A DNA stretch of 49,864 nucleotides from positions 1-49,864 of IMG/VR virus record IMGVR_UViG_3300032236_000839; one strand, 5' to 3'. The notes beneath the pieces are model-generated. The model saw nothing but the letters and a program-made list of their open reading frames with translations. It made no database searches and had not been told where the DNA came from. The position numbers and the translations under genes are program-made. Shown here piece by piece: positions 31,234 to 49,864 of this stretch. Position 1 is the stretch's first letter, and each line of letters opens with the position of its first letter. This stretch comes from a virus.

Positions 31234-31237
31234 AAGT

Positions 31238-31250
31238 GAACTCTTCGGAG
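31238..31250 (+). repeat. 13-bp direct repeat, left copy
   Basis: GAACTCTTCGGAG, repeated at 32841-32853. The two copies bracket the GIY-YIG gene pair. Confidence 0.6.
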
Positions 31251-31261
31251 TTCCTTTTTTT
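31238..31261 (+). terminator. UUCG-capped terminator after psbA
   Basis: GAACTC-TTCG-GAGTTC stem-loop followed by a run of seven T. The first 13 bases recur at 32841. Confidence 0.85.
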
Positions 31262-31263
31262 GT

Positions 31264-31364
31264 ATATAAATACTGATACCTGTGTGGTTCGCATCTATCA
31301 GGTGGAAAAGGTGCTCTGCACCTTTTCTTGTATAAATAGTATTGCGAACCATCACAGAGTAGAA
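31264..31364 (+). promoter_or_regulatory. Twin-promoter stem-loop leader of GIY-YIG gene 1
   Basis: Order: late box TATAAATA (31265-31272), 5' arm CTGTGTGGTTCGCA (31280-31293), inner hairpin GAAAAGGTG/CACCTTTTC (31305-31327), second late box TATAAATA (31331-31338), and 3' arm TGCGAACCATCACAG (31343-31357) next to the ATG at 31365. The outer arms pair over 14 bp with one bulge. The same layout occurs at 35411-35507. Confidence 0.75.
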
Positions 31365-32030
31365 ATGTATTACACCTACGCATATTTGCGGGAAGACAAA
31401 ACACCTTACTATATTGGTAAAGGTAAAGGAAATAGAATATTTAATAAAAATAAAGGTGATATAAGACCACCAAAAGATAAGTCAAGAATAATCTTCCTTA
31501 AAAAGAACTTAACCGAAGCAGAAGCATTTAGACACGAAATCTATATGATTACTGTGTTTGGTAGAAAAGATTTAGAAACTGGTATATTAAGAAACAGAAC
31601 CGATGGTGGTGAAGGTGCTTCTGGGCTTGTGATAAGTGAAGAAACAAGAAAAAAATTAAGTGAATTGAGAGTTGGTGAAAAAAATCCTAACTATGGGAAA
31701 GAAATGAGTGAAGAACAAAAACAAAAAATAAGTGAGAAAAGAAAAGGAACAAAACTATCAGAGGAACATAAAGATAAAATCAGACAGAAAATGATGGGAA
31801 ATACTTGGAATGTTGGTAAAAAACTTTCGGATGAAACTAAAAGAAAAGTTGGTGAGGCACAAAAAGGTAATCAATATATGAAAGGGATGAAATTTTCAGA
31901 AGAAACTAAACAGAAAATGAGTGAATCTCATAAAGGTAAGACACCAACAGAAGAAACAAGAAAAAAATTAAGTGAAGCAAAGAAAGGTAATCAAAACTGG
32001 AAATATAGAAAACACAAAAATGATGAATGA
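31365..32030 (+). CDS. GIY-YIG homing endonuclease with NUMOD3 repeats
   Basis: A 221-aa protein starting at ATG 31365. The frame is open back to 31236, but the equivalent gene at 35508 starts at the same MYYTYAYLRED. The catalytic part has YAYLREDKTPYYIGKG (variant GIY and YIG strands), EAFRHEIYMITVFGRKDL with the conserved Glu, and NRTDGGEG. From about residue 85 there are NUMOD3-type DNA-binding repeats (SEETRKKLSE, SEEQKQKISEKRKG and similar). It lies just downstream of the intron-bearing psbA, and the intron itself has no ORF. It overlaps the next endonuclease gene by about 8-11 bases. Confidence 0.85.
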   Translation: MYYTYAYLREDKTPYYIGKGKGNRIFNKNKGDIRPPKDKSRIIFLKKNLTEAEAFRHEIYMITVFGRKDLETGILRNRTDGGEGASGLVISEETRKKLSELRVGEKNPNYGKEMSEEQKQKISEKRKGTKLSEEHKDKIRQKMMGNTWNVGKKLSDETKRKVGEAQKGNQYMKGMKFSEETKQKMSESHKGKTPTEETRKKLSEAKKGNQNWKYRKHKNDE

Positions 32031-32814
32031 ATTCTACACTTATGCTTATTTGAGAGAAGACAGAACACCTTATTATATTGGTAAAGGAACAAAAGACCGA
32101 GCATATGTAAAGCACCAAAAAGGAATAGGATTACCCAAACACAAGAGTAAAATAATCTTTCTAAAAAAGAACTTAACTGAAGAAGAAGCATTTAAGCACG
32201 AAATCTATATGATTGCCGTATTTGGTAGGAAAGATTTGGGAACTGGTATTCTTCATAACAGAACTGATGGTGGTGATGGGCGTTCAAATCCATCACCAGA
32301 AGTAAGAATGAAAATGAGTGAATCACACAAAGGTAAAAATAATCATTTTTATGGAAAAACTCATTCAGAAAAAACCAGAAAAAAAATGAGTGAAAGAATT
32401 ATTTCAGAAGAAACCAAAAAAAAACTGAGTGAAGTAATGAAAGGAAGAACTCATTCAAAAGAAACTAAAAATAAAATAAGTGAAGCAGGACAAGGTAAAA
32501 ATAATCATTTTTATGGAAAAACTCATTCGGAAGAAACTAAAAATAAAATCGCAGAAAGTAAAAGAGGACAAAAACTTACAGTGGAACATAGAAAAAAATT
32601 AAGTAAAGCAGGACAAGGTAAAAAAAATTCAACAGCAAAACAATATATTTTTATTTCCCCAAATGGTAAAAAATACCTTATAGAAGGTAGTGTTAAGAAA
32701 TTCTGCAAAGAAATAGGAATAACTTATGATTCCGTTTTGGGAAAGAAAAGTAAAAATACTAAAGGCTGGACTATAATAGATAATGGACGAATATACCTAC
32801 AAAAACACCAATGA
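32020..32814 (+). CDS. GIY-YIG homing endonuclease with NUMOD3 and NUMOD1-like tail
   Basis: A 264-aa protein. ATG 32020 or the adjacent ATG 32023 starts it, inside the end of the previous gene. The catalytic part is TYAYLREDRTPYYIGKG, EAFKHEIYMIAVFGRKDL, NRTDGGDG. Several NUMOD3 repeats follow (NNHFYGKTHSEKTRKKMSE, NNHFYGKTHSEETKNKIAE). A C-terminal NUMOD1/IENR1-like domain follows (YIFISPNGKKYLIEGSVKKF then GWTIID). It is a close paralogue of the gene at 31365 and probably arose by tandem duplication. It has no own promoter and is likely coupled to the upstream gene. Confidence 0.85.
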   Translation: MMNEFYTYAYLREDRTPYYIGKGTKDRAYVKHQKGIGLPKHKSKIIFLKKNLTEEEAFKHEIYMIAVFGRKDLGTGILHNRTDGGDGRSNPSPEVRMKMSESHKGKNNHFYGKTHSEKTRKKMSERIISEETKKKLSEVMKGRTHSKETKNKISEAGQGKNNHFYGKTHSEETKNKIAESKRGQKLTVEHRKKLSKAGQGKKNSTAKQYIFISPNGKKYLIEGSVKKFCKEIGITYDSVLGKKSKNTKGWTIIDNGRIYLQKHQ

Positions 32815-35415: not shown

Positions 35416-35507
35416 ATAATGATGCCTGGTTTGTTCGCACTTTTCGGGTGGGGGAGTAGAAATGCTCTCCCTTATAAATAGTATTGCGAACAAACAACAG
35501 AGCAGAA
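35411..35507 (+). promoter_or_regulatory. Twin-promoter stem-loop leader of GIY-YIG gene 3
   Basis: Late box TATAAATA (35411-35418, overlapping the upstream stop), 5' arm CTGGTTTGTTCGCA (35426-35439), inner hairpin GGGGAG/CTCTCCC region (35451-35471), second late box TATAAATA (35473-35480), 3' arm TGCGAACAAACAACAG (35485-35500), ATG 35508. The outer arms pair over 14 bp with a 2-base bulge. Compared with 31264-31364 the pairs change in a compensatory way. Confidence 0.75.
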
Positions 35508-36374
35508 ATGTATTACACTTACGCCTATTTGCGTGAAGATAGAACACCTTATTACATAGGAAAGGGGCAAGGTAATCGGGCATACAAAAGATGTAAAAAG
35601 GATATTAAACCACCAAAAGACAAATCAAGAATAATATTACTCAAACAGAACTTAACAGAAGAAGAAGCATTTAGACACGAGGTCTATATGATTGCGGTGT
35701 TCGGTAGAAAGGATTTGGGAACTGGTATTCTTCATAATAGAACCGATGGTGGTGATGGGTTAAGTAATCCTTCTGTGGAAACCAGAAGAAAAATGAGTGA
35801 ATTAAGTAAAGAAAGAACTCATTCAGAAGAAACAAAAGAAAAAATAAAGAAAATTGTTCTTGGGAAAAAATGGTGGAATAATGGAAAAGAAAATTCACAC
35901 TCTAAAGAATGTCCTGGGAATGGATGGGTTCTTGGGAGAATAATAACTTGGGATGAAGAAAAAAGAATAAAAACTGGAAAAACATCTATAAAAATGCGAA
36001 ATTCAAAAAATTTATACAAATTTACATATAAAAATGGTGAAATAGTCTATGCTTCTGATATTAATGAACTTGGAAAAATTTGTGGAAGTGAGAATGCTTT
36101 TTATAGAGTTTCAGTAGGTCAAAGAAAATCTTATAAAGGTTGGATTTCTGTTGAAAAATGTTATGATGTTAATGTTGATTTGAATCCGCAAATAATTATT
36201 GATTTGTGCAAAATTGAAAGAAAATACAAAATTACTCATAAAGATGGAACAATTATGTATTCAACTGATTTAAGAAAAATTGGAAAAGAATATGGATATG
36301 TTGAGGGATTTCGTAGGGTAATGACAAAAGAAAGAAAATCTTATAAGGGTTGGATTAGTGTTGAAATGATATGA
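35508..36374 (+). CDS. GIY-YIG homing endonuclease with tandem C-terminal repeats
   Basis: A 288-aa protein starting MYYTYAYLREDRTPYYIGKG. The catalytic region is like those at 31365 and 32020. A NUMOD3-like segment (SEETKEKIKKIVLGKKWWNN) and the ECPGNGWVLGR motif follow, the latter shared with the endonuclease at 37060 (ECPGEEWQIGR). The C-terminus has two copies of a NUMOD1-like unit, YKFTYKNGEIVYASDINELG and YKITHKDGTIMYSTDLRKIG, each ending RKSYKGWISVE. It carries its own leader and sits between the TTG-start gene and a small membrane protein. Confidence 0.85.
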   Translation: MYYTYAYLREDRTPYYIGKGQGNRAYKRCKKDIKPPKDKSRIILLKQNLTEEEAFRHEVYMIAVFGRKDLGTGILHNRTDGGDGLSNPSVETRRKMSELSKERTHSEETKEKIKKIVLGKKWWNNGKENSHSKECPGNGWVLGRIITWDEEKRIKTGKTSIKMRNSKNLYKFTYKNGEIVYASDINELGKICGSENAFYRVSVGQRKSYKGWISVEKCYDVNVDLNPQIIIDLCKIERKYKITHKDGTIMYSTDLRKIGKEYGYVEGFRRVMTKERKSYKGWISVEMI

Positions 36375-37059: not shown

Positions 37060-37668
37060 ATGGAAGGTATAATTTATTGTTATCATTGTATTCCAACAGG
37101 AAAAAAATATATTGGAAAAACTTTATATGAGGCAAAAAGAAAACAAGACCACAAATATAATGTTTCCATTAAAACTTCTACAAAATTTTATAATGCTGTT
37201 AGAAAATACGGATGGGATAATTTTGTCTATGGAATTATTGAAACAGTAGAAGCAAATTTACTTGAAAATGTGGAAAAGTTTTATATTCAAAAATACAATA
37301 CTATGATAAATGGTTATAATATGACTATTGGTGGAGATGGTAAATTTGGATGGAAAGCAACTCCAGAAACTAAAGAAAAAATAAAAAAATCAAATACTGG
37401 AAAAGTTCTTTCCGAAGAAACAAAAAGAAAAATTAGTGAAGCAAAAAAAGGATGTTTTGGAACTTTTACGGGAAAAAAACATACCGAAGAAACTAAAGAA
37501 AAAATAAGAAATTCACATAAAGGAAAACCATTTGTGGGAATTCATAATAACAATAAAGAAACAAAATGGTGGAATGATGGACAAATTAACAAAAGAAGTG
37601 TAGAATGTCCCGGTGAAGAATGGCAAATCGGAAGATTGCCATTAAGACCGTATAAAAAGAGGAATTAA
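37060..37668 (+). CDS. GIY-YIG homing endonuclease with NUMOD3 repeats
   Basis: A 202-aa protein with the classical motifs GIIYCYHCIPTGKKYIGKT, a DHKYN region, and GYNMTIGGDG. Two NUMOD3 repeats follow (SEETKRKISEAKKG and TEETKEKIRNSHKG) and an ECPGEEWQIGR tail shared with the endonuclease at 35508. It is separated from the next gene by one base and appears to be inserted in that gene's 5' end. It is more divergent in the catalytic domain than the other three GIY-YIG genes. Confidence 0.88.
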   Translation: MEGIIYCYHCIPTGKKYIGKTLYEAKRKQDHKYNVSIKTSTKFYNAVRKYGWDNFVYGIIETVEANLLENVEKFYIQKYNTMINGYNMTIGGDGKFGWKATPETKEKIKKSNTGKVLSEETKRKISEAKKGCFGTFTGKKHTEETKEKIRNSHKGKPFVGIHNNNKETKWWNDGQINKRSVECPGEEWQIGRLPLRPYKKRN

Positions 37669-37669
37669 A

Positions 37670-37861
37670 ATGGTTTATGAAAATTTAACGGATTTTGAAA
37701 GAGCACTTGCTCGTTTTGGTGATAAAGTTGCCTTGATTGCTGGTCTTGAAATTACGGATAAAATTTCACCAGAACAAGCATATCAAGAAATTAAAGAACT
37801 TTATAAAGAACTTAAATCACTTCGCAAACAAGAAAAAGATGAATGGGAAGTAGAAGTATGA
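37670..37861 (+). CDS. Hypothetical protein interrupted at its start by the endonuclease
   Basis: A 63-aa helical protein, MVYENLTDFERALARFGDKV, then ISPEQAYQEIKELYKELKSL. The Shine-Dalgarno AGAGG comes from the end of the endonuclease gene. A duplicate of the first six codons lies upstream at 37011. Function unknown. It overlaps the next gene by four bases. Confidence 0.6.
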   Translation: MVYENLTDFERALARFGDKVALIAGLEITDKISPEQAYQEIKELYKELKSLRKQEKDEWEVEV

Positions 37862-38034
37862 TGAATACAACAACTGATGATAGTGGATTGATTGTTAGAC
37901 AGAATGCTGATAGTTCCTTCCAAATGGAATGGGATGCCAAGGACAGTCGGTGGAGTGTCCTCAATTCCCTGACACCAGAGGAAATCCATGCTATGCTAAT
38001 GGAAGAAATCAAAAGGGATTTGAATGACCTATGA
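37858..38034 (+). CDS. Hypothetical protein, 58 aa, carrying the left 105-bp repeat
   Basis: A 58-aa protein, MMNTTTDDSGLIVRQNADSS then FQMEWDAKDSRWSVLNSLTPEEIHAMLMEEIKRDLNDL. It starts with an ATGA overlap. Its last ~35 codons lie in a 105-bp block repeated at 40019-40123. In the right copy this frame would end RDLND and overlap the next gene's ATG, probably the ancestral arrangement. Similar DAKDxRWSVLNxLTPEE sequences are seen in cyanophage small proteins. Confidence 0.65.
   Translation: MMNTTTDDSGLIVRQNADSSFQMEWDAKDSRWSVLNSLTPEEIHAMLMEEIKRDLNDL
37924..38028 (+). repeat. 105-bp direct repeat, left copy
   Basis: It matches 40019-40123 at 102 of 105 positions by eye (three substitutions, no gaps). 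It flanks the sugar-nucleotide cassette. Confidence 0.9.
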
Positions 38035-39987: not shown

Positions 39988-40122
39988 ATGAGTGAATATA
40001 AGAAAACAGCACTTGTACATGGAATGGGATGCCAAGGACAGTCGGCGGAGTGTCCTCAATTCCCTGACACCAGAGGAAACCCGTGCTATGCTAATGGAAG
40101 AAATCAAAAGGGATTTGAATGA
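39988..40122 (+). CDS. Out-of-frame ORF over the right repeat (probable junction product)
   Basis: A 44-aa frame, MSEYKKTALVHGMGCQGQSA, which reads the 105-bp repeat in a different frame from the gene at 37858. It begins after the late promoter and ends by overlapping the ATG at 40119. It is probably a scar of the rearrangement and may serve only for translational coupling. Confidence 0.3.
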   Translation: MSEYKKTALVHGMGCQGQSAECPQFPDTRGNPCYANGRNQKGFE

Positions 40123-40123
40123 C
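40019..40123 (+). repeat. 105-bp direct repeat, right copy
   Basis: Partner of 37924-38028, with three substitutions. Its end includes the ATG of the gene at 40119. Confidence 0.9.
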
Positions 40124-40640
40124 TGACCACAAAGACTACTCACTCAAGCAAGTTGAAAACTTTTTGTATGATGCGATGAGTGCAGACGCAACGGCACAAG
40201 AAATCTATGATGTGATTAAAGGTGTTGTTGCTGACAACTATAATGTCTACAAGAATGCCACAGAAAAAGCATATGAACTCCTTACTCTATTGAATGGTAA
40301 TGGTAAAGGGCACATTGGTTCTTATTCAGTATCCAAAGTTGAAGAGAAACTCAAAACTCCTATTCAACAAAATCCTCAATATACTGATGAAGAAGTGGAT
40401 GCGATGTGTGTTGCTGCCGAAGAAGAAGAACTTATCTCTAAAGGATACTTCAAAGAAAATGGTTCCTGGAAAAAACCAAAGACTTGGATTGTTGAAGTTT
40501 CTATGGATGGATTAACTGGTGATGCTTTTCTTCCAATCCCAGATGAAGTTATGGACCTAGTTGAATGGAATTTGTATGATGAACTTGAGTGGATTGACAA
40601 CAAAGATGGTTCTTGGATTATTCGCAAGGTTACGAAATGA
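40119..40640 (+). CDS. Conserved hypothetical protein, 173 aa
   Basis: A 173-aa acidic protein. The N-terminal half is helical (LKQVENFLYDAMSADATAQEIYDVIKGVV), the middle has TDEEVDAMCVAAEEEELISKGYF, and the C-terminal part is beta-like (KTWIVEVSMDGLTGDAFLPIPDEV). No enzymatic motif is recognised. It begins in the right copy of the direct repeat and is coupled to the next gene by ATGA. Confidence 0.65.
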   Translation: MTDHKDYSLKQVENFLYDAMSADATAQEIYDVIKGVVADNYNVYKNATEKAYELLTLLNGNGKGHIGSYSVSKVEEKLKTPIQQNPQYTDEEVDAMCVAAEEEELISKGYFKENGSWKKPKTWIVEVSMDGLTGDAFLPIPDEVMDLVEWNLYDELEWIDNKDGSWIIRKVTK

Positions 40641-41547: not shown

Positions 41548-41706
41548 ATGGAACTAACAACTGAAGAATGGTCGGAACTGGTAGCACTCAAAAACGCAAT
41601 TAATTATAATCCAGCATCAGTTCATCCCAAAAAAATGGAACTATTCACAGAACTTCTTGTAAGGTCTTGGGAAGGAAAGGGAGATGATATAACTTTTGAT
41701 AAATAA
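41548..41706 (+). CDS. Small hypothetical protein, 52 aa
   Basis: A 52-aa frame, MELTTEEWSELVALKNAINY then NPASVHPKKMELFTELLVRS. It has the Shine-Dalgarno GGAG at 41538 and a possible -10 TTAGAAT about 35 bases upstream. Its stop lies within the late promoter box at 41699. Function unknown. Confidence 0.55.
   Translation: MELTTEEWSELVALKNAINYNPASVHPKKMELFTELLVRSWEGKGDDITFDK
41699..41705 (+). promoter_or_regulatory. Late promoter of the capsid-targeted gene group
   Basis: ATAAATA overlapping the stop of the 52-aa gene, 24 bases before ATG 41730. It may transcribe the run 41730-44737. Confidence 0.65.
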
Positions 41707-41729: not shown

Positions 41730-42440
41730 ATGATTTCGGAAGCAAGTAGAAGAGAGAAAATTGCCAATGCTGTTCTTGGTGCAACATTTGCATTAAGTGC
41801 GGCACAATCCCCCAAGGATTTTGTAAGAACAGGAGCTATTGAAAGTCCTGGAACTGCCCTAATGCAAACTTGGGGAAGAAGAAGAGGAGAAGCAGAAAGA
41901 AATCTAAATAGTGCTAGAGTTTCGGACCCAGCAAGAAATAAAAAGATGAAGAAAACATTTAGAGAGTTTCTAGAAGAAGCAGTTCTCATTTCAGAAATGA
42001 GAAAGGAAGATAAAGTTGCTGGAAAGCAGAAAACTCCACTTTATAATGTTAAAACAAATAAAAAATTAGAAAAAACACCAGAAGGTAAGTGGGAAACGAA
42101 GACCACCACTTACAAGAGACCAAGTGCAGAAGCAACTTTTGGAAGGTCAATGCCTCTTCACGCACACGGAATGCGTAATGGAGTATCAGGCATCAATCGT
42201 GGTGTGAAACAGGCACAACAGAAAAAACCATATGTGCCAACACCAGACGCAAAGCAAAGAAAGCATCATAATGATTACTTTAGATATCATCACGGTGAAG
42301 TAGCAGATACTAAAAGAAAAGAAGCACAAAAAACTGGATTTACTCAAGCATCACAGTCTTGGAGTTCGTCTAAACCAAAGACTAAACCAAGTGCGGCAGA
42401 GCGTATGTCAGCAGCAGCAGATAAACTGGGACTAAAATGA
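41730..42440 (+). CDS. Basic protein with internal capsid-targeting-like motif
   Basis: A 236-aa protein. Residues 1-72 (MISEASRREKIANAVLGATF...) are an unusual N-terminal part. At residue 73 there is MKKTFREFLEEAVLISEM, which matches the capsid-targeting starts of the next three genes, including the F-L-x-E-A site. A second start at ATG 41946 would give a 164-aa targeted protein. The rest is basic and low complexity (KRKHHNDYFRYHHGEVADTK), fitting a DNA-associated internal head protein. The stop overlaps the next gene (ATGA). Confidence 0.65.
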   Translation: MISEASRREKIANAVLGATFALSAAQSPKDFVRTGAIESPGTALMQTWGRRRGEAERNLNSARVSDPARNKKMKKTFREFLEEAVLISEMRKEDKVAGKQKTPLYNVKTNKKLEKTPEGKWETKTTTYKRPSAEATFGRSMPLHAHGMRNGVSGINRGVKQAQQKKPYVPTPDAKQRKHHNDYFRYHHGEVADTKRKEAQKTGFTQASQSWSSSKPKTKPSAAERMSAAADKLGLK

Positions 42441-43174
42441 AAACATTTAAAGAGTTTATTACTGAAGCATACTTGATTGAAAAAACTACTTCAAGTAAAG
42501 CAGAAGGGGAAAAATATCACGAAGAAAATCCACCATTTGGAGGTGAACCTTATATAATAAAACAAAAAGCTCGTACGGGTAGACCTCCAGAATGGAGACC
42601 AGTTCGTGCTGGCAAAAGAAAAGCACAAGAGAAAAGAAGAACTGGAGTAATAAATAAAACTAGACTTACTTATAATGAACTCCTAACCAAGTCTAGAGGT
42701 GATAGGGAACGGGCTGCTGCCGCATTAGATGCAGAAGAAACTGGAATTAAAAAAACAGAAAAGAGAAAACGAAGAATTCAAAAAGCAACCGGAGTTAAGC
42801 AAAGTTTGGGGCACAAGCAACCACTTCAACCAGATGACCCAAAGCCAGAAGACCCCGGACATACTCGGTCTAATACTCAAATAGAACCACTTAGTCCCAA
42901 TACATCAAAGCAAAATAGAAGACTTAAACCGGGGGAAAGTGGGTATGGTCTCAATAGGGCACAGTCAACAACGGATGCTATAAAAAGAGGAGATAAACTT
43001 TTAAATAGAATAGATGACCTGACAAAATCAGTACAATCTGGAAAACCATCCAGGGCTGCAAGATTGTTGAGTTATATAAGAAGACCCAAATCAAAATCCA
43101 AAAAAACACCAGAGCAACAAGCAGAAACGAGAGCAAGAATGGCAGCCAATGCAAAGACAAGAGGATATGATTAA
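42437..43174 (+). CDS. Putative internal head protein with capsid-targeting peptide
   Basis: A 245-aa protein starting MKTFKEFITEAYLIEK. This resembles the T4 capsid-targeting sequence (MKTYQEFIAEA in IPIII as I recall), including an I-x-E/A prohead protease site after residue 10. The rest is very basic and looks disordered (GKRKAQEKRRTGVINKTRL, KKTEKRKRRIQKATG, RRPKSKSKKTPEQQ). Such proteins are packed with DNA and injected in T4. Function beyond packaging is unknown. Confidence 0.7.
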   Translation: MKTFKEFITEAYLIEKTTSSKAEGEKYHEENPPFGGEPYIIKQKARTGRPPEWRPVRAGKRKAQEKRRTGVINKTRLTYNELLTKSRGDRERAAAALDAEETGIKKTEKRKRRIQKATGVKQSLGHKQPLQPDDPKPEDPGHTRSNTQIEPLSPNTSKQNRRLKPGESGYGLNRAQSTTDAIKRGDKLLNRIDDLTKSVQSGKPSRAARLLSYIRRPKSKSKKTPEQQAETRARMAANAKTRGYD

Positions 43175-43176
43175 AA

Positions 43177-43566
43177 ATGAAAACCTTTCAAGAATTCCTC
43201 AGAGAGGCGAAGGAGAAATCTCACGATGAAGTAATGAAAAAAATGAGCACAAATTGGAACAGGAATAATCCTGGTTCCAATTTTAATGTTGATTATAGAC
43301 CATCAGAAGACCCAAAGAAAAATCACATATATCTTGGTTTGATTGACGTAAAACACGGAAAAAGAAGAGCAGGTAAAGGAACTAGATTTGTTCGTGGAAT
43401 CACAAGATATGCAGACAAACATAAGTTGCCAGTCAGTGTAAAACCAGTACCAGAAAAAGGATACGAAGATAAATTAAAATCTTTTTATTCCAAGCACGGA
43501 TTTGAGGACAATAAAACCAAAGAGATTGCTCCACATCCAATGATTCGTAATCCTAAAAATAAATAA
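43177..43566 (+). CDS. Capsid-targeted GNAT-like acetyltransferase
   Basis: A 129-aa protein. MKTFQEFLREAKEK is a capsid-targeting peptide with an L-x-E/A cleavage site. The remaining ~115 residues resemble a short GNAT domain: HIYLGLIDVKHGKRRAGKGT with RxxGxG for acetyl-CoA pyrophosphate binding, RFVRGITRYADKHKLPVSVKP, then EDKLKSFYSKHGFED, the classic motif B ending. If packaged, it would be injected and could modify host proteins early, by analogy with T4 Alt. The GNAT N-terminal part seems shortened. Confidence 0.65.
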   Translation: MKTFQEFLREAKEKSHDEVMKKMSTNWNRNNPGSNFNVDYRPSEDPKKNHIYLGLIDVKHGKRRAGKGTRFVRGITRYADKHKLPVSVKPVPEKGYEDKLKSFYSKHGFEDNKTKEIAPHPMIRNPKNK

Positions 43567-43576
43567 AAGTAAAACG

Positions 43577-44737
43577 ATGAAAACTTATCAAGAGTTTATT
43601 ATAGAAGCAAAGAAGTGCTGGCCTGGTTATAAGAAAAAAGGAACCAAAAAACTATTTGGAAAGACGTATAATAATTGTGTGAAAGATGTAAAGGAAGATT
43701 ATAAAAATCTTCCTAGAGAAAGAATGAAACAACAATACGACAGAAAGAAAGATAAAAATTACGATGAATTCCATAAGAGAAATAAAATGGGTGATGGTCC
43801 AAGAGTCTCAAGAGGAAAAAGTGATGTTGAAATTGATAGACATGGAAATAGCAAACAAACTAAAGCAATTAGTGGTGAATTAAAAAACAATCCACGTTTT
43901 TATGATGATAGTCACGAAATGTGGCAAAGAATGCAATCAAAATATAAGAGTAATAAAAACTCTAATGCATCTAGTGAAGTTACAAAAAAACTTACATCTA
44001 GAATGAATGAAGATTTGAGTGTTGAATTGGAAGAGAGTTCAACTGCTGAAAAGACTAGAGGTAGAGCAACTCTCGCAAGAGGTAGAGGTGCTGATATGAC
44101 TAGAAGTGAAAGAACTACAGCAGCAATCGCAAAGAAAGCAGGATTGAAAGGAACTGGTAAGTATTCCACTAAAGACTTAAGAAAACCTGCAAGAGATTAT
44201 ACAACTTATGATAGTGAAGATACTGATGATGATTATGGAAGCACAGCACAAGACCATTTCATTCGCACATATCCATCAGCAAGAGCAGCAGCAAAAGGTG
44301 AAAGACTGATTACTAAGATGAAAGCAGCAGGAAGAACTCCATCTGGTATGACTAAACTCAAATCCGCACCTTCAAGTGAAAGTGTAAGAAGAGTGAAAGA
44401 TTTGAAGAAGCAAATGACGAAATCAGGTGCGAATAAAACTGGAAAAGTTCATACTGTAGATATTATGCATCGTGATAGTAATGTAGGTAAAGGTGATAGA
44501 AAAAAAAGAATGGAAAGAGGTAGAAACTTTATTCAAGCAATCAAAGATACTCCAAAACACTTGGAGAAAGCAGGAGCAAAACCTGGTGATACTGTAATTG
44601 GAAAACCAACAGCAGTTATGGATGGTGAAGATAAGAAAACTGGTGAAGCAAAAAGAGCAAAACTTTATAAAAATATTTTTGGCAAAAGAAGCACCAAAAA
44701 GTCAGAAAAAACGGGACTTATGGTAGGTAAAGTTTAA
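43577..44737 (+). CDS. Large basic internal head protein with capsid-targeting peptide
   Basis: A 386-aa protein starting MKTYQEFIIEAKKCWPGYKK. The first 11 residues differ from T4 IPIII (as I recall it) at one position. KKCWPGYKKKGTKKLFGKTY is a small motif common in cyanophage proteins. An ELEESSTAEKT segment at residue ~153 offers a second L-x-E-like site. The rest is strongly basic, with Lys/Arg-rich and Ser/Thr-rich stretches (ARGRGADMTRSERTTAAIAK, DSNVGKGDRKKRMERGRNF). It probably binds DNA inside the head. Confidence 0.7.
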   Translation: MKTYQEFIIEAKKCWPGYKKKGTKKLFGKTYNNCVKDVKEDYKNLPRERMKQQYDRKKDKNYDEFHKRNKMGDGPRVSRGKSDVEIDRHGNSKQTKAISGELKNNPRFYDDSHEMWQRMQSKYKSNKNSNASSEVTKKLTSRMNEDLSVELEESSTAEKTRGRATLARGRGADMTRSERTTAAIAKKAGLKGTGKYSTKDLRKPARDYTTYDSEDTDDDYGSTAQDHFIRTYPSARAAAKGERLITKMKAAGRTPSGMTKLKSAPSSESVRRVKDLKKQMTKSGANKTGKVHTVDIMHRDSNVGKGDRKKRMERGRNFIQAIKDTPKHLEKAGAKPGDTVIGKPTAVMDGEDKKTGEAKRAKLYKNIFGKRSTKKSEKTGLMVGKV

Positions 44738-44742
44738 TAATA

Positions 44743-44754
44743 TATAAATAAATA
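44743..44754 (+). promoter_or_regulatory. Tandem late promoter boxes
   Basis: TATAAATAAATA, two overlapping ATAAATA boxes, 18-22 bases before ATG 44772. Confidence 0.65.
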
Positions 44755-44771
44755 CAAATAGATTTATAAAG

Positions 44772-45317
44772 ATGGATTCTCAAGAATTACGCAATCTTCA
44801 AGAAGCTTACTTAGAGGTTTATTCTGAACTTGATGAAGAAAGAGCACCTGGCGTAAAGCCTTATCAACCCAGGGAACGTAATCCTCTTCCTAAAGAGAAA
44901 CCACTCTCGGGTGAAAAGGGAGATGGAAGTGGATATGGTGAGGACAAGAAGTTCGCCAAACCAGATGATAAAATTGAAAAGCCAGGAACTACAGTTCCCG
45001 AACCTAAAAAAGGTGGATATGGTAGAATTTCAAGAACTATTCCTTATGGTATTGGTGACCACGCAACTCCAACTCAATCGAGAGTTTCTGTAATAGTTAG
45101 AAAGGACCCTGGAGCACCAACTTCACAAAAACTTCCCCCAGAAGATAAGAAAAAACTGAGTAGAGAAATCGTCAGAAAGCCAAAGAATGAAGAAGTAGAT
45201 ATTTACGACCTGATTCTTTCACACTTACTTGATGAAGGTTATGCCGAAACACAAGAAGCAGCAGAAGCAATTATGGTGAATATGAGTGAAGAGTGGAGAG
45301 AAAGCATCATCGGTTGA
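44772..45317 (+). CDS. Paralogous LQEA-start protein, 181 aa
   Basis: A 181-aa protein starting MDSQELRNLQEAYLEVYSEL. Its middle is proline- and charge-rich and probably disordered. The C-terminal ~45 residues, DIYDLILSHLLDEGYAETQEAAEAIMVNMSEEWRES, form a compact helical domain shared with the gene at 45822. The L-Q-E-A site near residue 11 would also fit the prohead protease rule L-x-E/A. Location after the capsid-targeted genes suggests an internal or scaffold-associated virion protein. Confidence 0.65.
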   Translation: MDSQELRNLQEAYLEVYSELDEERAPGVKPYQPRERNPLPKEKPLSGEKGDGSGYGEDKKFAKPDDKIEKPGTTVPEPKKGGYGRISRTIPYGIGDHATPTQSRVSVIVRKDPGAPTSQKLPPEDKKKLSREIVRKPKNEEVDIYDLILSHLLDEGYAETQEAAEAIMVNMSEEWRESIIG

Positions 45318-45319
45318 TG

Positions 45320-45374
45320 CCACTTTCCAAACCGGCACAAGACCCCACCAAGGGGTCTTTTTTTATGCTATGAT
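45320..45374 (+). promoter_or_regulatory. Conserved element plus TATGAT promoter
   Basis: A 24-base element (45320-45343) that matches 46556-46579 at 21 positions, and TATGAT (45369-45374) at the same distance (25 bases between) as in the second copy. A terminator sits between element and -10 here. Confidence 0.5.
45339..45364 (+). terminator. Rho-independent terminator
   Basis: AAGACCCC/GGGGTCTT perfect 8-bp stem, five-base loop, then a T run. It ends transcription after the gene at 44772. Confidence 0.9.
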
Positions 45375-45394
45375 ATTGGAAACCAAAGAACACT

Positions 45395-45802
45395 ATGGAA
45401 CTGACTGTACTTGCTTACAAACTTGAAGATGGACTGTGGGCATTTGACCATCCCCATAACGATACAGTCCAAGAACTTTTGATGAATGGAACTGAAGAAG
45501 CAATTGACGAACACTTTTACTTTGAAACTGGACGACAAGCAGTTGAAAAAGACCAAATGGAAATTATTTTGAATACAGAAGAACCTACTGATTATGATAC
45601 TCTGCTTGTAAAAGAAGTGAGTGATGATGATGGAACAACTTATACGGATACAACACTTTGTATTCCTGTGTGGCTTTGTAACTGGAACCAAGGATACTTT
45701 GGATTTGTGCCCGAAGAACTTTATGTGAAAGTTCGTCCAATCAATAAAGGTTTGGAATCATTCGTGAAAAATACAGGTATGCGAGGTTTTTTGAATAAAT
45801 AA
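45395..45802 (+). CDS. Conserved hypothetical protein, DUF6717-like
   Basis: A 135-aa acidic protein, MELTVLAYKLEDGLWAFDHP, then DTVQELLMNGTEEAIDEHF and TTLCIPVWLCNWNQGYFGFVPEELYVKV. The last segment resembles the small DUF6717 family often seen in cyanophages. Function unknown. It is preceded by an early-type promoter and followed by a late box in its last codons. Confidence 0.6.
   Translation: MELTVLAYKLEDGLWAFDHPHNDTVQELLMNGTEEAIDEHFYFETGRQAVEKDQMEIILNTEEPTDYDTLLVKEVSDDDGTTYTDTTLCIPVWLCNWNQGYFGFVPEELYVKVRPINKGLESFVKNTGMRGFLNK
45795..45801 (+). promoter_or_regulatory. T4-type late promoter box
   Basis: ATAAATA overlapping the stop of the previous gene, 20 bases before ATG 45822. Confidence 0.6.
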
Positions 45803-45821
45803 CTAAAAAAGTAGTTGTAAG

Positions 45822-46550
45822 ATGAACTCACAAGAACTTCGTGCCCTTCAAGAAGCATATATGGATGTTTATGGACTTGATGAAGCATCTGGTGGTATTA
45901 TTGGTGGAAAAACTTTTCCTTCTAAAAATGTTCCCGAAAAATCAAAACCAAATAAACCATCAAAGATTGGAAGAGGTATAAGAAAATCAATACATTCTGC
46001 TTCTTTTGGATTTAGTCAGGAAAAACCAAAAGATATTGTTTCCAGACATAAAGAATATACTGATAACGAACTTGATACAGTTTCCAGAGGAAAGGACGAA
46101 CCAAAACCAGGAAAAGGAAGAAGTAAAAGTGCTAGGGAGTTTCAGTTGAGGGTTATTGAAAGGGAGAAAAGAAGGAGACAAAAAGCAAACGAAGAAACCG
46201 ATCTCTACGACATCATTCTCTCCCATCTTTTAGATGAAGGTTATGCTGACACACAAGAACAAGCAGAAGTCATTATGGTCAATATGAGTGAAGATTGGAG
46301 GGAAAGTATTTTTGAAAATGTAAGTAGTGGAAAGGGTCGTGTAACGAGATATGTTCAATCTAGACCAACTGGACCTGTAACTAATAGAGAATTGGATACA
46401 TCTCGTCAAAGAAGAATGGATACTGAGAATGATAGAATTAAAAAGATAGGTGATGAGGCACACGCAGCAGCAACATCTAAGGGTTTGAGTTTCGGAGAAG
46501 CAGAGTTTCGTAGAAAAAGAGCAGAACTTCGTGCGAGAAAAAACTCTTAG
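45822..46550 (+). CDS. Paralogous LQEA-start protein, 242 aa
   Basis: A 242-aa protein starting MNSQELRALQEAYMDVYGLD, a paralogue of the gene at 44772. After a basic disordered region (KPGKGRSKSAREFQLRVIEREKRRRQK) comes the shared helical domain DLYDIILSHLLDEGYADTQEQAEVIMVNMSEDWRES. It then has an extra basic tail of about 80 residues (VTRYVQSRPTGPVTNRELDT, EFRRKRAELRARKNS) absent from the paralogue. Probably virion-internal, inferred from charge and position. Confidence 0.65.
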   Translation: MNSQELRALQEAYMDVYGLDEASGGIIGGKTFPSKNVPEKSKPNKPSKIGRGIRKSIHSASFGFSQEKPKDIVSRHKEYTDNELDTVSRGKDEPKPGKGRSKSAREFQLRVIEREKRRRQKANEETDLYDIILSHLLDEGYADTQEQAEVIMVNMSEDWRESIFENVSSGKGRVTRYVQSRPTGPVTNRELDTSRQRRMDTENDRIKKIGDEAHAAATSKGLSFGEAEFRRKRAELRARKNS

Positions 46551-47103: not shown

Positions 47104-47223
47104 ATGCCTTGTGCCAGTTGAGCAACTGGTCGTATGATTTTCCGCCAGGGTCCAAACTCTGGTATATTGATTGGGTGGTGAGGGAAGCAGTCCTCAAAGA
47201 AACTTGACAATTTAAACCTTTCT

Positions 47224-47303
47224 GGGGTGGTTCCCGTAGCGGCGAACGGACCTGGCTTTTAACCAGAGATACAAACACCGTGAGTTCGAGTCTCACTCGC
47301 CCC
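47224..47303 (+). tRNA. tRNA-Lys (UUU)
   Basis: Acceptor GGGGTGG with TCGCCCC, anticodon loop CTTTTAA between CTGG and CCAG, T arm GTGAG-TTCGAGT-CTCAC. The variable region is longer than usual. Confidence 0.7.
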
Positions 47304-47336
47304 ATAGACCTAGAAAGTCATTAAACTTATCTATTT

Positions 47337-47419
47337 GGGTAGGTGTCCGAGTGGTTGAAGGAGGGAGACTGTAAATCTCTTGGTTCTGTCCATCGTTGGT
47401 TCGAATCCAACCCTACCCA
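47337..47419 (+). tRNA. tRNA-Tyr (GUA)
   Basis: Acceptor GGGTAGG/CCTACCC, anticodon loop CTGTAAA, long class II variable arm, T arm GTTGG-TTCGAAT-CCAAC. Confidence 0.92.
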
Positions 47420-47422
47420 CCT

Positions 47423-47494
47423 GACTCTATAATGAAGTGGTTATCATACTTCTCTGTCTAAGAAGAATCACGAGTTCGAATCTCGTTAGAGTCG
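47423..47494 (+). tRNA. tRNA-Asp (GUC)
   Basis: Acceptor GACTCTA/TAGAGTC, anticodon stem-loop CTTCT-CTGTCTA-AGAAG, T arm ACGAG-TTCGAAT-CTCGT. Confidence 0.92.
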
Positions 47495-47495
47495 T

Positions 47496-47538
47496 TGCTG
47501 ATTTGCGCTGGAGCTGATAATCCAGAATGCCGTCAGCA
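47496..47538 (+). other. Mini tRNA-like hairpin with an Ile-type loop
   Basis: Outer stem TGCTGAT/GTCAGCA (7 bp with one G-U), inner stem CTGGA/TCCAG, loop GCTGATAA. The loop contains CTGATAA, the same as the tRNA-Ile(GAU) at 48672. There are no D or T arms. It is probably a tRNA remnant or a processing hairpin. Confidence 0.45.
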
Positions 47539-47541
47539 TTT

Positions 47542-47617
47542 GCCGTAGTAGACAAACTGGTTAAAGTCACCTTTCTTTCAAAAAGGATATTTTGAGGGTT
47601 CAACTCCCTTCTACGGT
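47542..47617 (+). tRNA. tRNA-Glu (UUC)
   Basis: Acceptor GCCGTAG/CTACGGT (G-U first pair), anticodon CCTTT-CTTTCAA-AAAGG, T arm with TTCAACT. The opposite-strand HNH gene ends inside it. Confidence 0.85.
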
Positions 47618-48376
47618 TTTCCTCTTCTTGAGGGACTTATAATCAATTCCTAATGTTATGCAACGTTTTCTTACAGCGTTATCACTAACGCCTAAGATTT
47701 CTCCAACTTTAGTCATAGGATATTGATTTATAAGATTTATGAGTTCTTCTTTTGTGATTTCAAATTTTTTTTTATATGAAAGACATAAATCGTTTTTTTG
47801 TCTATTTTTAGATGCACATGATAAACATCTTATGGATTTTGTTCCTATTTGGTTTTCACAATCTCTACATTTTTTTATAATCTTTCTATGTTTTCCTGAA
47901 AATGTTTCTGTTTGTGAGTGACAGTTGGGGCATAATAATCTTAAATTTTCTAAACGATTATCATTATTAATTCCATTAATATGATCTAATTGTAAAGAAA
48001 TTTTCTTTCCATTCCAAATATCCTCTAAACTGCATAAAGAACATCTATATTCCAATAGATTAAACTTTAGTAGTTTCTTTTTTACTTCAGAAGAAGAGAA
48101 TGAAGAATTTTCAACTAATATTTCTTCTATATTTTTGGAATTAGATTTGCATAGATTATTCCTCACATTTTTCATATAACTTTTGTGATTTTCATTAAAA
48201 ATATTTAAATTAAAATTTTCTTGTTTTAGTCTTAATTTTAATGATTTTCTGTTACCAGCTAAAGGATGTAAATTAAATCTTGTAAGTATTTCACTTATAG
48301 TATTTGATGTATCTAATATTCTTTGTAATTCTTCGTGAGAAGTTGTCCATATTATACTAGTTCTTTTTCTAGACAT
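47600..48376 (-). CDS. HNH homing endonuclease in the tRNA array
   Basis: A 258-aa protein and the only minus-strand gene in the window. A zinc-associated HNH core reads YRCSLCSLEDIWNGKKISLQLDHINGINNDNRLENLRLLCPNCHSQ, with the catalytic His in LDH, the Asn and the final CPNCH, plus CRDCENQIGTKSIRCLSCAS. The C-terminus has an HTH (MTKVGEILGVSDNAVRKRC). The N-terminus (EELQRILDTSNTISEILTRF) may be another HTH. The last 18 bases, including the stop, lie within tRNA-Glu on the other strand. An AT-rich TATAAT-like region lies upstream of its ATG. Confidence 0.85.
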   Translation of the reverse strand: MSRKRTSIIWTTSHEELQRILDTSNTISEILTRFNLHPLAGNRKSLKLRLKQENFNLNIFNENHKSYMKNVRNNLCKSNSKNIEEILVENSSFSSSEVKKKLLKFNLLEYRCSLCSLEDIWNGKKISLQLDHINGINNDNRLENLRLLCPNCHSQTETFSGKHRKIIKKCRDCENQIGTKSIRCLSCASKNRQKNDLCLSYKKKFEITKEELINLINQYPMTKVGEILGVSDNAVRKRCITLGIDYKSLKKRKTVEGS

Positions 48377-48428
48377 TTGAACTCATAAATATTACTATAC
48401 ATATTATATATAGTGTCTAATTTAAAAC

Positions 48429-48502
48429 CGAATGTCGCCTAACTTGGTCATGGCACCTGCTTTGGGAGCAGGAATAATCTCAGTTCAAATCTGAGCATTC
48501 GG
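48429..48502 (+). tRNA. tRNA-Pro (UGG)
   Basis: Acceptor CGAATGT/GCATTCG, anticodon stem-loop CCTGC-TTTGGGA-GCAGG, T arm CTCAG-TTCAAAT-CTGAG. Confidence 0.92.
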
Positions 48503-48527
48503 ATCGGAGATTTATCTCCAAACTTAT

Positions 48528-48601
48528 GGGAACATGGTGTAGGTTGGTCGGCACGTATGTCTGAAGAACATGAGGTCACAGTTCGATTCTGTGTGTTCCC
48601 A
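48528..48601 (+). tRNA. tRNA-Phe (GAA)
   Basis: Acceptor GGGAACA/TGTTCCC, anticodon TATGT-CTGAAGA-ACATG, T arm CACAG-TTCGATT-CTGTG. A hairpin GGAGA-TTTA-TCTCC lies just before it. Confidence 0.9.
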
Positions 48602-48645
48602 TAAGAGGGCGGAAGCAACACACCTCTCTAAAAACGGGTTGGAGG

Positions 48646-48669
48646 TTGCAAGTTTCCATAAACTTGCCT
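48646..48669 (+). other. Intergenic hairpin in the tRNA array
   Basis: A perfect GCAAGTTT/AAACTTGC stem with a four-base CCAT loop between tRNA-Phe and tRNA-Ile. No T run follows. Confidence 0.6.
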
Positions 48670-48671
48670 GA

Positions 48672-48745
48672 TGGAATGTAGCTCAGTTGGTTAGAGTGCT
48701 GTCCTGATAAGACAGATGTCGTGAGTTCAAATCTCACCATTCCAA
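48672..48745 (+). tRNA. tRNA-Ile (GAU)
   Basis: Acceptor TGGAATG/CATTCCA, anticodon CTGTC-CTGATAA-GACAG, T arm GTGAG-TTCAAAT-CTCAC. Confidence 0.92.
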
Positions 48746-48797
48746 TTGTTGCCTTTGGGCAACATAAAACCCTTATGGGTTGCTTCAAGACAACATT

Positions 48798-48888
48798 GGA
48801 AGTGTGGCAGAGTCCGGTTTATTGCAGAATCCTGCTAAGATTCCGTGTCAAGTAATTGGCACCACTGGTTCAAATCCAGTCACTTCCG
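48798..48888 (+). tRNA. tRNA-Ser (GCU)
   Basis: Acceptor GGAAGTG/CACTTCC, anticodon GAATC-CTGCTAA-GATTC, long variable arm (GTGTC...GGCAC), T arm CTGG-TTCAAAT-CCAG. Confidence 0.92.
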
Positions 48889-48890
48889 TT

Positions 48891-48980
48891 GAGAGAGCAT
48901 CTTGGTTGATGGGCACGACGGTGTTAGAGACGGTTCGATTCCGTCCTTTGGCAATGGTGGTTCGATTCCACCTTCTCTCA
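48891..48980 (+). pseudogene. Aberrant tRNA-like element with two T arms
   Basis: Outer stem GAGAGAG/TTCTCTC and a terminal T arm GGTGG-TTCGATT-CCACC, but also a second T arm GACGG-TTCGATT-CCGTC inside (48929-48945). No clean anticodon stem is found. The only candidate loop, GTGTTAG (GUU, Asn), has two mismatches in its stem. It may be a chimeric or decayed tRNA. Confidence 0.4.
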
Positions 48981-48985
48981 AACCT

Positions 48986-49070
48986 GGAGAATTGTCCGAG
49001 AGGATTATGGTGCAAACTTGGAAAGTTTGTGTGGATAAAACCACCAGAGGTTCGAATCCTCTATTCTCCG
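48986..49070 (+). tRNA. tRNA-Ser (GGA)
   Basis: Acceptor GGAGAAT/ATTCTCC, anticodon CAAAC-TTGGAAA-GTTTG, variable arm GTGG...CCAC, T arm AGAGG-TTCGAAT-CCTCT. Confidence 0.92.
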
Positions 49071-49161
49071 TTGGAAACATCCTATAAACATAGCGCCGAT
49101 ATTTCCTCTTATATTAGAGGTTTGGATACTTTCCTTGACCGTCGCGGGTAAACGGTCTTTC

Positions 49162-49233
49162 GGCAGTATAGTTCAGTGATAGAACAGAAGATTCATACCC
49201 TTCTCGTCGGTGGTTTGATTCCACCTACTGTCA
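49162..49233 (+). tRNA. tRNA-Met (CAU)
   Basis: Acceptor GGCAGTA/TACTGTC, anticodon GAAGA-TTCATAC-CCTTC with an A-C pair next to the loop, T arm GGTGG-TTTGATT-CCACC. An Ile-type lysidine tRNA cannot be excluded. Two hairpins (CCTCT/AGAGG and GACCGT/ACGGTC) fill the gap before it. Confidence 0.85.
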
Positions 49234-49234
49234 T

Positions 49235-49306
49235 GTGCCATTATCCTAGTGGTTAAGGAACCTGTTTGTGAAACAGGGTAGACGAGTTCAAATCTCGTAT
49301 GGCACC
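49235..49306 (+). tRNA. tRNA-His (GUG)
   Basis: Acceptor GTGCCAT/ATGGCAC, anticodon CCTGT-TTGTGAA-ACAGG, T arm ACGAG-TTCAAAT-CTCGT, discriminator C as in tRNA-His. The base before the acceptor is T, not the G usually encoded at -1. Confidence 0.9.
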
Positions 49307-49308
49307 CC

Positions 49309-49381
49309 GCCCGATTAGCTCAGTGGCCAGAGCAATTGTCTAGTAAACAATAGGTCATCAGTTCAAATCTGATATTGGGCT
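49309..49381 (+). tRNA. tRNA-Thr (AGU)
   Basis: Acceptor GCCCGAT/ATTGGGC, anticodon ATTGT-CTAGTAA-ACAAT, T arm ATCAG-TTCAAAT-CTGAT. The anticodon reads AGU, unusual in bacteria and phages. Confidence 0.85.
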
Positions 49382-49384
49382 CTC

Positions 49385-49409
49385 AACTACCGAGTAATCC
49401 TCGGTAGTT
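49385..49409 (+). other. Intergenic hairpin in the tRNA array
   Basis: A perfect 10-bp stem AACTACCGAG/CTCGGTAGTT with loop TAATC between tRNA-Thr and tRNA-Cys. No T run follows. Confidence 0.7.
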
Positions 49410-49415
49410 CAATAT

Positions 49416-49489
49416 GTCTAGGTGGCAGAGTGGTCGAATGCGGAAGTCTGCAAAACTTCTTATCGTGGGTTCGAATCCCACCCTAGACT
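49416..49489 (+). tRNA. tRNA-Cys (GCA)
   Basis: Acceptor GTCTAGG/CCTAGAC, anticodon GAAGT-CTGCAAA-ACTTC, T arm GTGGG-TTCGAAT-CCCAC. Confidence 0.92.
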
Positions 49490-49490
49490 T

Positions 49491-49518
49491 TTAATCCCGT
49501 TGATTTCCACGGGATTAA
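49491..49518 (+). other. Intergenic hairpin in the tRNA array
   Basis: A perfect 10-bp stem TTAATCCCGT/ACGGGATTAA with an 8-base loop between tRNA-Cys and tRNA-Gln. Confidence 0.7.
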
Positions 49519-49523
49519 CTTAT

Positions 49524-49597
49524 TCCCAAGTAGACAAATTGGTAAAGTCACCTCGCTTTGAACGAGTTGTTTGGAGGTTCGACCCCTTCCTTGGGAG
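49524..49597 (+). tRNA. tRNA-Gln (UUG)
   Basis: Acceptor TCCCAAG/CTTGGGA, anticodon CTCG-CTTTGAA-CGAG, T arm around TTCGACC. Confidence 0.87.
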
Positions 49598-49600
49598 CCT

Positions 49601-49674
49601 GCCCGATTGATGGAATTGGTATACATACTTGCCTTAGAAGCAAGGTTTTACAGGTTCGAGTCCTGTATCGGGCA
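49601..49674 (+). tRNA. tRNA-Leu (UAG)
   Basis: Acceptor GCCCGAT/ATCGGGC, anticodon CTTGC-CTTAGAA-GCAAG, T arm ACAGG-TTCGAGT-CCTGT. The D arm is Leu-like but the variable region is only about five bases, not the usual long arm. Confidence 0.9.
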
Positions 49675-49691
49675 TTGGATTTTATATCCAA
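49675..49691 (+). other. Intergenic hairpin in the tRNA array
   Basis: TTGGAT/ATCCAA 6-bp stem with loop TTTAT between tRNA-Leu and tRNA-Trp. Confidence 0.5.
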
Positions 49692-49697
49692 ACATAT

Positions 49698-49768
49698 GCG
49701 GGATTGGTCTAATGGTAAGACAAGAGATTCCAAACCTCTTGATGTGGGTTCGATTCCTACATCCCGTG
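49698..49768 (+). tRNA. tRNA-Trp (CCA)
   Basis: Acceptor GCGGGAT/ATCCCGT, anticodon loop TTCCAAA in a stem with an A-C pair at the loop edge, T arm GTGGG-TTCGATT-CCTAC. Confidence 0.88.
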
Positions 49769-49772
49769 CCAT

Positions 49773-49846
49773 GTCTTCTTAACTCAGTGGACTAGAGTGC
49801 TTGGCTACGAACCAAGAAGTCGTAGGTTCAAATCCTACAGAAGACG
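49773..49846 (+). tRNA. tRNA-Arg (ACG)
   Basis: Acceptor GTCTTCT/AGAAGAC, anticodon CTTGG-CTACGAA-CCAAG, T arm GTAGG-TTCAAAT-CCTAC. The anticodon ACG would be inosine-modified. Last complete tRNA; the array may continue past the edge. Confidence 0.92.
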
Positions 49847-49864
49847 CTTGACTATCTCTTATAG

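Follow-up and report, generated by a model that had tools for sequence, protein, structure and literature searches.

Why should several neighboring genes of a cyanophage, with bodies that do not resemble one another, begin with (or, for one of them, contain) nearly the same short peptide? We examined this question in a 49,864-bp virus fragment from IMG/VR (IMGVR_UViG_3300032236_000839; "the window" here means the whole of that stretch), which is assigned to a T4-like cyanophage and whose nearest named relatives are S-SRM01, S-CRM01, and B23. A preliminary description of the window had pointed to a cohort of four proteins carrying peptides like the capsid-targeting sequence (CTS) of the T4 internal proteins (IPs). 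Those four plus-strand genes, with a peptide that we call leader A, were found again, but the count was short, as two more genes (at 44772 and 45822) carry a second leader, leader B. The window thus has 6 tagged open reading frames (ORFs) within 4.6 kb, 4 with leader A and 2 with leader B. Their products are very probably internal head proteins of the T4 style, which would enter the head along with the prohead core, be trimmed by gp21, and probably be delivered by injection. As part of this explanation, and with equal assurance, we read the region 41730-46550 as a cassette of late-expressed internal head protein genes of a freshwater-type T4-like cyanophage. Its features are as follows (the arrow marks the predicted cut).

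41698..41705, plus strand: late-promoter motif GATAAATA, 32 nt 5' of ORF1
41730..42440, plus strand: ORF1, 236 amino acids; a 72-residue pro-region starting M-I-S-E↓A, then leader A (probably internal), then a basic body
41946..41981, plus strand: MKKTFREFLEE↓A, the ORF1 copy of leader A, which is probably internal; gp21 is predicted to cut after 41978
42437..43174, plus strand: ORF2, 245 amino acids, isoelectric point (pI) 10.4; leader A MKTFKEFITE↓A at 42437-42469, body without an assigned fold
43177..43566, plus strand: ORF3, 129 amino acids; leader A MKTFQEFLRE↓A at 43177-43209 and a predicted GNAT acetyltransferase domain
43558..43565, plus strand: late-promoter motif AATAAATA 5' of ORF4
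43577..44737, plus strand: ORF4, 386 amino acids; leader A MKTYQEFIIE↓A at 43577-43609, CW module, and an alpha/beta C-terminal domain of uncertain fold
43610..43684, plus strand: CW module of ORF4, KKCWPGYKKKGTKKLFGKTYNNCVK
44743..44750, plus strand: late-promoter motif TATAAATA 5' of ORF5
44772..45317, plus strand: ORF5, 181 amino acids; N-terminal leader B MDSQELRNLQE↓AYLEVYSELDE, domain D at the C-terminal end
45794..45801, plus strand: late-promoter motif AATAAATA 5' of ORF6
45822..46550, plus strand: ORF6, 242 amino acids; leader B MNSQELRALQE↓AYMDVYGLDE and domain D (LSHLLDEGYADTQEQAEVIMVNMSEDW)

Leader A

The strict motif MK[KT]{1,2}[FY]xEF[IL]xEA occurred exactly 4 times in the six frames of the window (41946, 42437, 43177, and 43577), just as described before, and in none of 300 codon shuffles. 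A pattern scan of the window's own record gave 4 matches compared to 0 for the reversed-pattern control. The rest of these proteins had been called unrelated and mostly very basic, and both points held. When the ORF3 and ORF4 families were compared profile to profile, the alignment was limited to residues 1-16, and the four leader-A proteins have a pI of 10.0-10.4 compared to 4.3-6.4 for other sampled ORFs of the window. The start at 43577 had been placed one residue away from T4 IPIII; in AF158101, IPII and IPIII both begin MKTYQEFIAEA, from which the ORF4 leader MKTYQEFIIEA does differ only at residue 9. Synonymous codons vary among the four leader-A copies (ACA/ACC/ACT, GAA/GAG, TTT/TTC, and GCA/GCG), which argues for selection on the peptide rather than recent copying of DNA.

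The first 10 residues are enough for packaging in T4, with residues 4 and 7 acting in targeting and residues 8 and 10 in gp21 processing (PMC9026906). Leader A retains the key T4 positions (F/Y4, F7, I/L/V8, E10, and A11), a conservation that is partly built into the search pattern; the ORF1 copy carries one extra Lys. In the GNAT family, which was gathered by whole-protein similarity and independently of that pattern, M1, K2, T3, F4, F7, E10, and A11 were invariant while the bodies went down to 34-37% identity. By analogy with T4 and from these sequences, the leader-A genes appear to encode internal proteins of the CTS type. T4 itself (AF158101) has, besides IPII and IPIII, a 54-amino-acid ORF with a CTS-like N-terminus, MKTFKEFIKED (19099-19130, minus strand).

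Start of ORF1 and its pro-region

The first gene had previously been placed with its start at 41946, which is probably wrong. Position 41946 is codon 73 of the ORF at 41730-42440, with 72 codons upstream in frame, and this extension (M[IL]xE[AG]...SAAQSP...RGEAERNL...) was kept in frame in loci L010, L011, L012, L015, L019-L021, and L084. At L190, the extension precedes a leader without Met and a different body; because it has no Met, that leader must be internal. Relatives that start at the leader itself were found at L013, L016, L017, L023, L082, L086, and L088. Position 41946 was ruled out as the probable start by the conserved in-frame extension together with the late-promoter motif upstream of 41730, and ORF1 most likely begins at 41730 with its leader internal, behind a pro-region. 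The pro-region (41730-41945 of the window) was found before at least 2 different bodies, and its first residues, M[IL]xE[AG], matched a minimal gp21-type site (I/L-x-E↓A/G) in every relative.

Leader B and leader exchange

Leader B reads MNSQELRALQEAYMDVY, with M[DN]SQELRxLQE↓AY as the consensus of ORF5 and ORF6; ORF5 has a pI of 5.2. A search with ORF6 (45822) returned 79 loci. Over all loci examined, there were 45 distinct leader-B N-termini, with L9-x-E11-A12-Y13 in all of them, residues 9 and 11-13 (L, E, A, and Y) having been demanded by the pattern itself; Q4 was present in 44 and V16 in 43.

One body of about 160 residues (VPWNDPKxPLxSGxTPxEKNxAKRxxTGVED) was found behind leader A (L012, L109, and L080), behind leader A plus the CW module (L011, L022, L023, L082, and L088), and behind leader B (L132, L113, and L134), with similarity across leader types at E-values to 1e-25. 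Because the same body sits behind A, A plus CW, or B, the leaders are exchangeable. The bodies are swapped between phages and the leaders retained, and leader B is probably a second head-targeting leader. The window holds the largest tagged group (six ORFs); groups of 3-5 recurred at 19 further loci, with some overlap among them on shared contigs.

Late-promoter motifs

The motif NATAAATA is a cyanophage late promoter (PMC2984593). It was present 19-32 nt 5' of the ORFs at 41730, 43577, 44772, and 45822. Across the window, 12 of the 20 plus-strand sites lay 15-45 nt 5' of an ORF start, a zone that makes up 2.9% of the window sequence, compared to 0 of 4 on the minus strand. These data suggest late synthesis of the cluster.

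Recurrence in other phages and the gp21 protease

Comparison of the N-termini across cyanophage genomes had been proposed as a check, and it bore out the motif. A relaxed leader-A pattern gave 26 matches in 17 annotated phages and 16 in seven long viral contigs, with 0 reversed-pattern controls in both sets, and recovered T4 IPII and IPIII; the leader-B pattern gave 7 matches and 0 controls in the same contigs. The cluster recurs across many viral contigs with its bodies shuffled. The gp21 protease (PF03420) was present in S-SRM01, S-CRM01, and B23, and in all 4 searched relatives longer than 170 kb. One of these 4, a contig of 247 kb on which L088 lies, has the same cluster, with 5 A leaders and 2 B leaders in addition to its gp21 protease. 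In gp23 of both S-CREM2 and S-SCSM1, LTE↓A or LAE↓A is found at residues 54-59 (near 57).

Another conserved protein with leader A, about 105 amino acids long (MKSFKQFISESVNIAGDFNG...), was found in S-SCSM1 (SSCSM1_30), S-CREM1 (SCREM1_177), S-SRM01 (L007), DSL-LC02 (L069), and DSL-LC03 (L055). In the first two of these phages, its gene adjoins those of the terminase.

Link to virion mass spectrometry

Virion mass spectrometry (MS) has been published for S-CREM2 (PMC10665884, Table 3) and S-SCSM1 (PMC9602691; marked in GenBank). Hidden Markov models (HMMs) were made from viral-contig proteins alone and then run on these two proteomes. The CW module model matched only CREM2_160 and SCSM1_29, both MS-detected virion proteins; leader B matched SCSM1_89 only, which was also the only protein above threshold for domain D; and leader A matched SCSM1_30, CREM2_154, and SCSM1_91. 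Non-structural proteins matched by the HMMs were MS-detected in 5 of 6 cases, compared to 38 of 419 others (Fisher p=4.7e-5).

A wider leader pattern added S-CREM2 gp6 (SAM hydrolase), gp13, gp14 (APH-like kinase), and gp154 (cytidylyltransferase), all MS-detected. The N-termini are MKDFDSFLEE for the SAM hydrolase, [M/V]KRFDAFLTEE for the kinase-like protein, and MKNFSSFLTEA for the cytidylyltransferase; the NMNAT of S-SCSM1 begins MKSFLQFLKEA. Because the wider pattern was picked after some of the N-termini had been seen, it is supporting only, and the virion argument rests on the viral-contig HMMs.

Many long leader-A enzymes have a second shared module after the leader, AKxLGLxGDGHGxWYDxxGxFVAKTxxGxLKF. 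Its carriers are SSCSM1_91, S-CREM2 gp12 and gp14, S-SRM01 L008, L056, L062, L064, L127, L136, and L180, and it is present in NMNAT-, kinase-, and Cas9-like virion proteins. This module may be a packaging adaptor.

Cargo bodies

ORF3 is a predicted GNAT-fold acetyltransferase. Its homologues, leader included, are 64% identical in S-CRM01 (annotated as an acetyltransferase) and 62% identical in B23, both of them laboratory isolates. The S-CRM01 homologue is g185 and begins MKTFDEFLTEG. The acetyl-CoA motif R/Q-x-x-G-x-G/A reads RRAGKG in the window and RNKGIG or RGKGIA in relatives. Top Foldseek matches were Naa50, AcrVA5 (rank 2), and GCN5, with a best E of 7e-4. Pfam PF13508 was matched at 7e-9 by a relative, the window copy alone staying under the Pfam cut-off. 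GNAT domains occur in injected phage proteins (PMC7824862).

The ORF4 structure model reached moderate confidence in the C-terminal third only (pLDDT 67-86) and had no match below E 0.5 in the PDB; its sole return in BFVD was the S-SRM01 homologue. Weak acetyltransferase-like matches recurred for ORF4, and we do not claim this fold for it. PHROG 2667, "internal head protein", matched ORF4 at residues 1-23 only (E 0.08). Homology of the mature bodies to T4 IPs was not found, as PHROGs 2667, 3966, and 35655 matched only the N-terminal 12-28 residues. ORF2 had no relative among 50,697 phage records, and a defence-system scan of the six tagged proteins gave no convincing match.

Proposed mechanism and alternative explanations

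Leader A, and probably also leader B, would bind the growing gp22/gp21 core at prohead assembly and so bring into the head whichever protein is fused behind it. A gp21-type protease would then cut after the Glu of I/L-x-E↓A; the leader would be lost and the basic mature protein would stay with the DNA. When a cell is infected, these proteins would most likely exit together with the DNA and then act in the host; among them is the predicted GNAT-fold acetyltransferase. Cleavage, copy number, and cargo function are inferred, and injection into the host is probable on the same footing. Internal head proteins had been proposed in the preliminary description, and this reading is supported by the conservation of T4-critical residues, by relatives that encode gp21, and by modules found in MS-detected proteins of S-CREM2 and S-SCSM1.

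Several observations weigh against it. The leader-A protein SCSM1_30 was not MS-detected, and the MS authors caution that enzymes may carry over through CsCl purification (PMC10665884, PMC9602691). The virion data come from other cyanophages. The window, a metagenomic fragment of 49.9 kb, has no head genes of its own, and gp21 was seen in relatives. No cyanophage case of cleavage after Glu was found in the accessible literature. ORF3 is the only cargo with an assigned fold; ORFs 1, 2, 5, and 6 and the C-terminal domain of ORF4 have none.

The same leaders could also package proteins that act inside the head, as core or scaffold helpers or in DNA condensation, rather than effectors delivered to the host. 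The very basic nature of all four leader-A proteins would fit, as would T4, where IPIII has an effect on the assembly of heads and standard hosts can be infected without the IP genes (PMC9026906). However, the bodies here are swapped and lineage-specific, unlike structural core genes, one is a predicted GNAT-fold enzyme, and leader-bearing proteins of isolated cyanophages include NMNAT, kinase, and SAM hydrolase; we consider an in-head role unlikely. It is possible, although doubtful, that only leader A targets the head and that leader B with domain D marks some other part of the virion, for instance a protein of the neck or tail. Leader B is without the aromatic residue at 4 and the Phe at 7 needed for T4 targeting, and leader-B proteins usually have domain D, which leader-A proteins do not. 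Nevertheless, the VPWNDP body is shared between the two leaders (L012, L109, and L080 for A; L132, L113, and L134 for B), L-x-E↓A was present in 45 of 45 distinct cases, even if L, E, and A were required by the pattern, and the sole leader-B protein of S-CREM2 and S-SCSM1 is among those detected in virions.

Two further scenarios would deny the leaders a packaging role. They could be relics, in genes whose products are not packaged in this virus; but the ORFs are intact with late-promoter motifs in place, the leader is invariant in relatives of 34% identity, and the MS association holds in other cyanophages, all of which makes this very unlikely. It is hardly credible that the shared N-termini arose by recent copying of a single 5' region, or that they enhance translation at the start and do not act in targeting. 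The four genes do stand close together in tandem, yet their leaders differ in synonymous codons, conservation follows the T4-critical residues and extends to distant phages and T4 itself, and the L190 leader is internal and has no Met. T4-style internal head proteins remain the best explanation.

Other features of the window

29914-30939: psbA
47223-49847: 17 tRNA genes

Three ORFs with RCC1-like repeats (consensus AIKTDGTLWTWGxNxxGQLGDNT...FAGGTNWKQV) lie at 5695-6885, 7546-8760, and 13072-16512 in a tail-fibre-like region, one of them 1146 amino acids long. Four GIY-YIG-like homing endonuclease ORFs are at 31236-32030, 31972-32814, 35484-36374, and 37060-37668, and the late-promoter motif stands shortly 5' of 3 of the 4. 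A pair of short paralogues, 37843-38034 and 39992-40126, with about 2 kb between them, have MEWDAKDSRxSVLNSLTPEExxAMLMEEIKRDLND in common.

Significance and comparison with known systems

Enzymes recur in purified cyanophage virions, and the authors of those studies were undecided between cargo and contamination (PMC10665884, PMC9602691). The T4-shared leader offers a packaging mechanism and a prediction of injected proteins from sequence alone. We propose leader B and the 72-residue pro-region as variants of the CTS scheme. We lean, if only slightly, toward at least 2 interchangeable leaders (A, and B as M[DN][SA]Q[DE][LF]RxLQE↓AY) and the pro-region (M[IL]xE↓A/G...leader A) forming a plug-in capsid-loading system for swapped cargo. 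If true, plug-in leaders would explain how NMNAT, kinases, and nucleases enter cyanophage virions, and a working leader B would be a second packaging signal, found in abundant viruses that infect the main primary producers of aquatic habitats. We know of no leader-B-type packaging signal in T4. In the open-access literature (subscription papers were not covered), "capsid targeting sequence" and "cyanophage" were joined only in a T4 review that does not contain this. As far as searched, then, the targeting principle is known from T4, and the cyanophage cohort, the second leader, and the module swapping are new.

Several virion-associated proteins of cyanophages, among the NMNAT, APH-like kinase, SAM hydrolase, and Cas9-like protein detected by MS (PMC10665884, PMC9602691), have the same leader, N-terminal in several of the enzymes and internal in S-CREM2 gp12. 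Their cargo differs from that of the window, and those two studies give no route of head entry. ORF3, a phage GNAT protein, can also be compared with polyvalent injected proteins that carry GNAT or ART domains and with GNAT proteins directed against the host or against CRISPR, such as AcrVA5; it differs in that it is small, single-domain, and has a CTS. If injected, ORF3 would parallel T4 Alt in role but not in chemistry. The cluster is close to T4 IPI, IPII, IPIII, and Alt in the length, sequence, and predicted cut site of leader A. The two also share the basic nature of the mature proteins, one leader placed before bodies that are unrelated, a gp21-type protease (here in relatives), and a late promoter. 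What sets the cluster apart from the T4 IPs is its bodies without similarity to them, more tagged genes in tandem, the larger size of ORF4 (386 amino acids), a cyanobacterial host, a further type of leader, and a pro-region that is followed by an internal leader.

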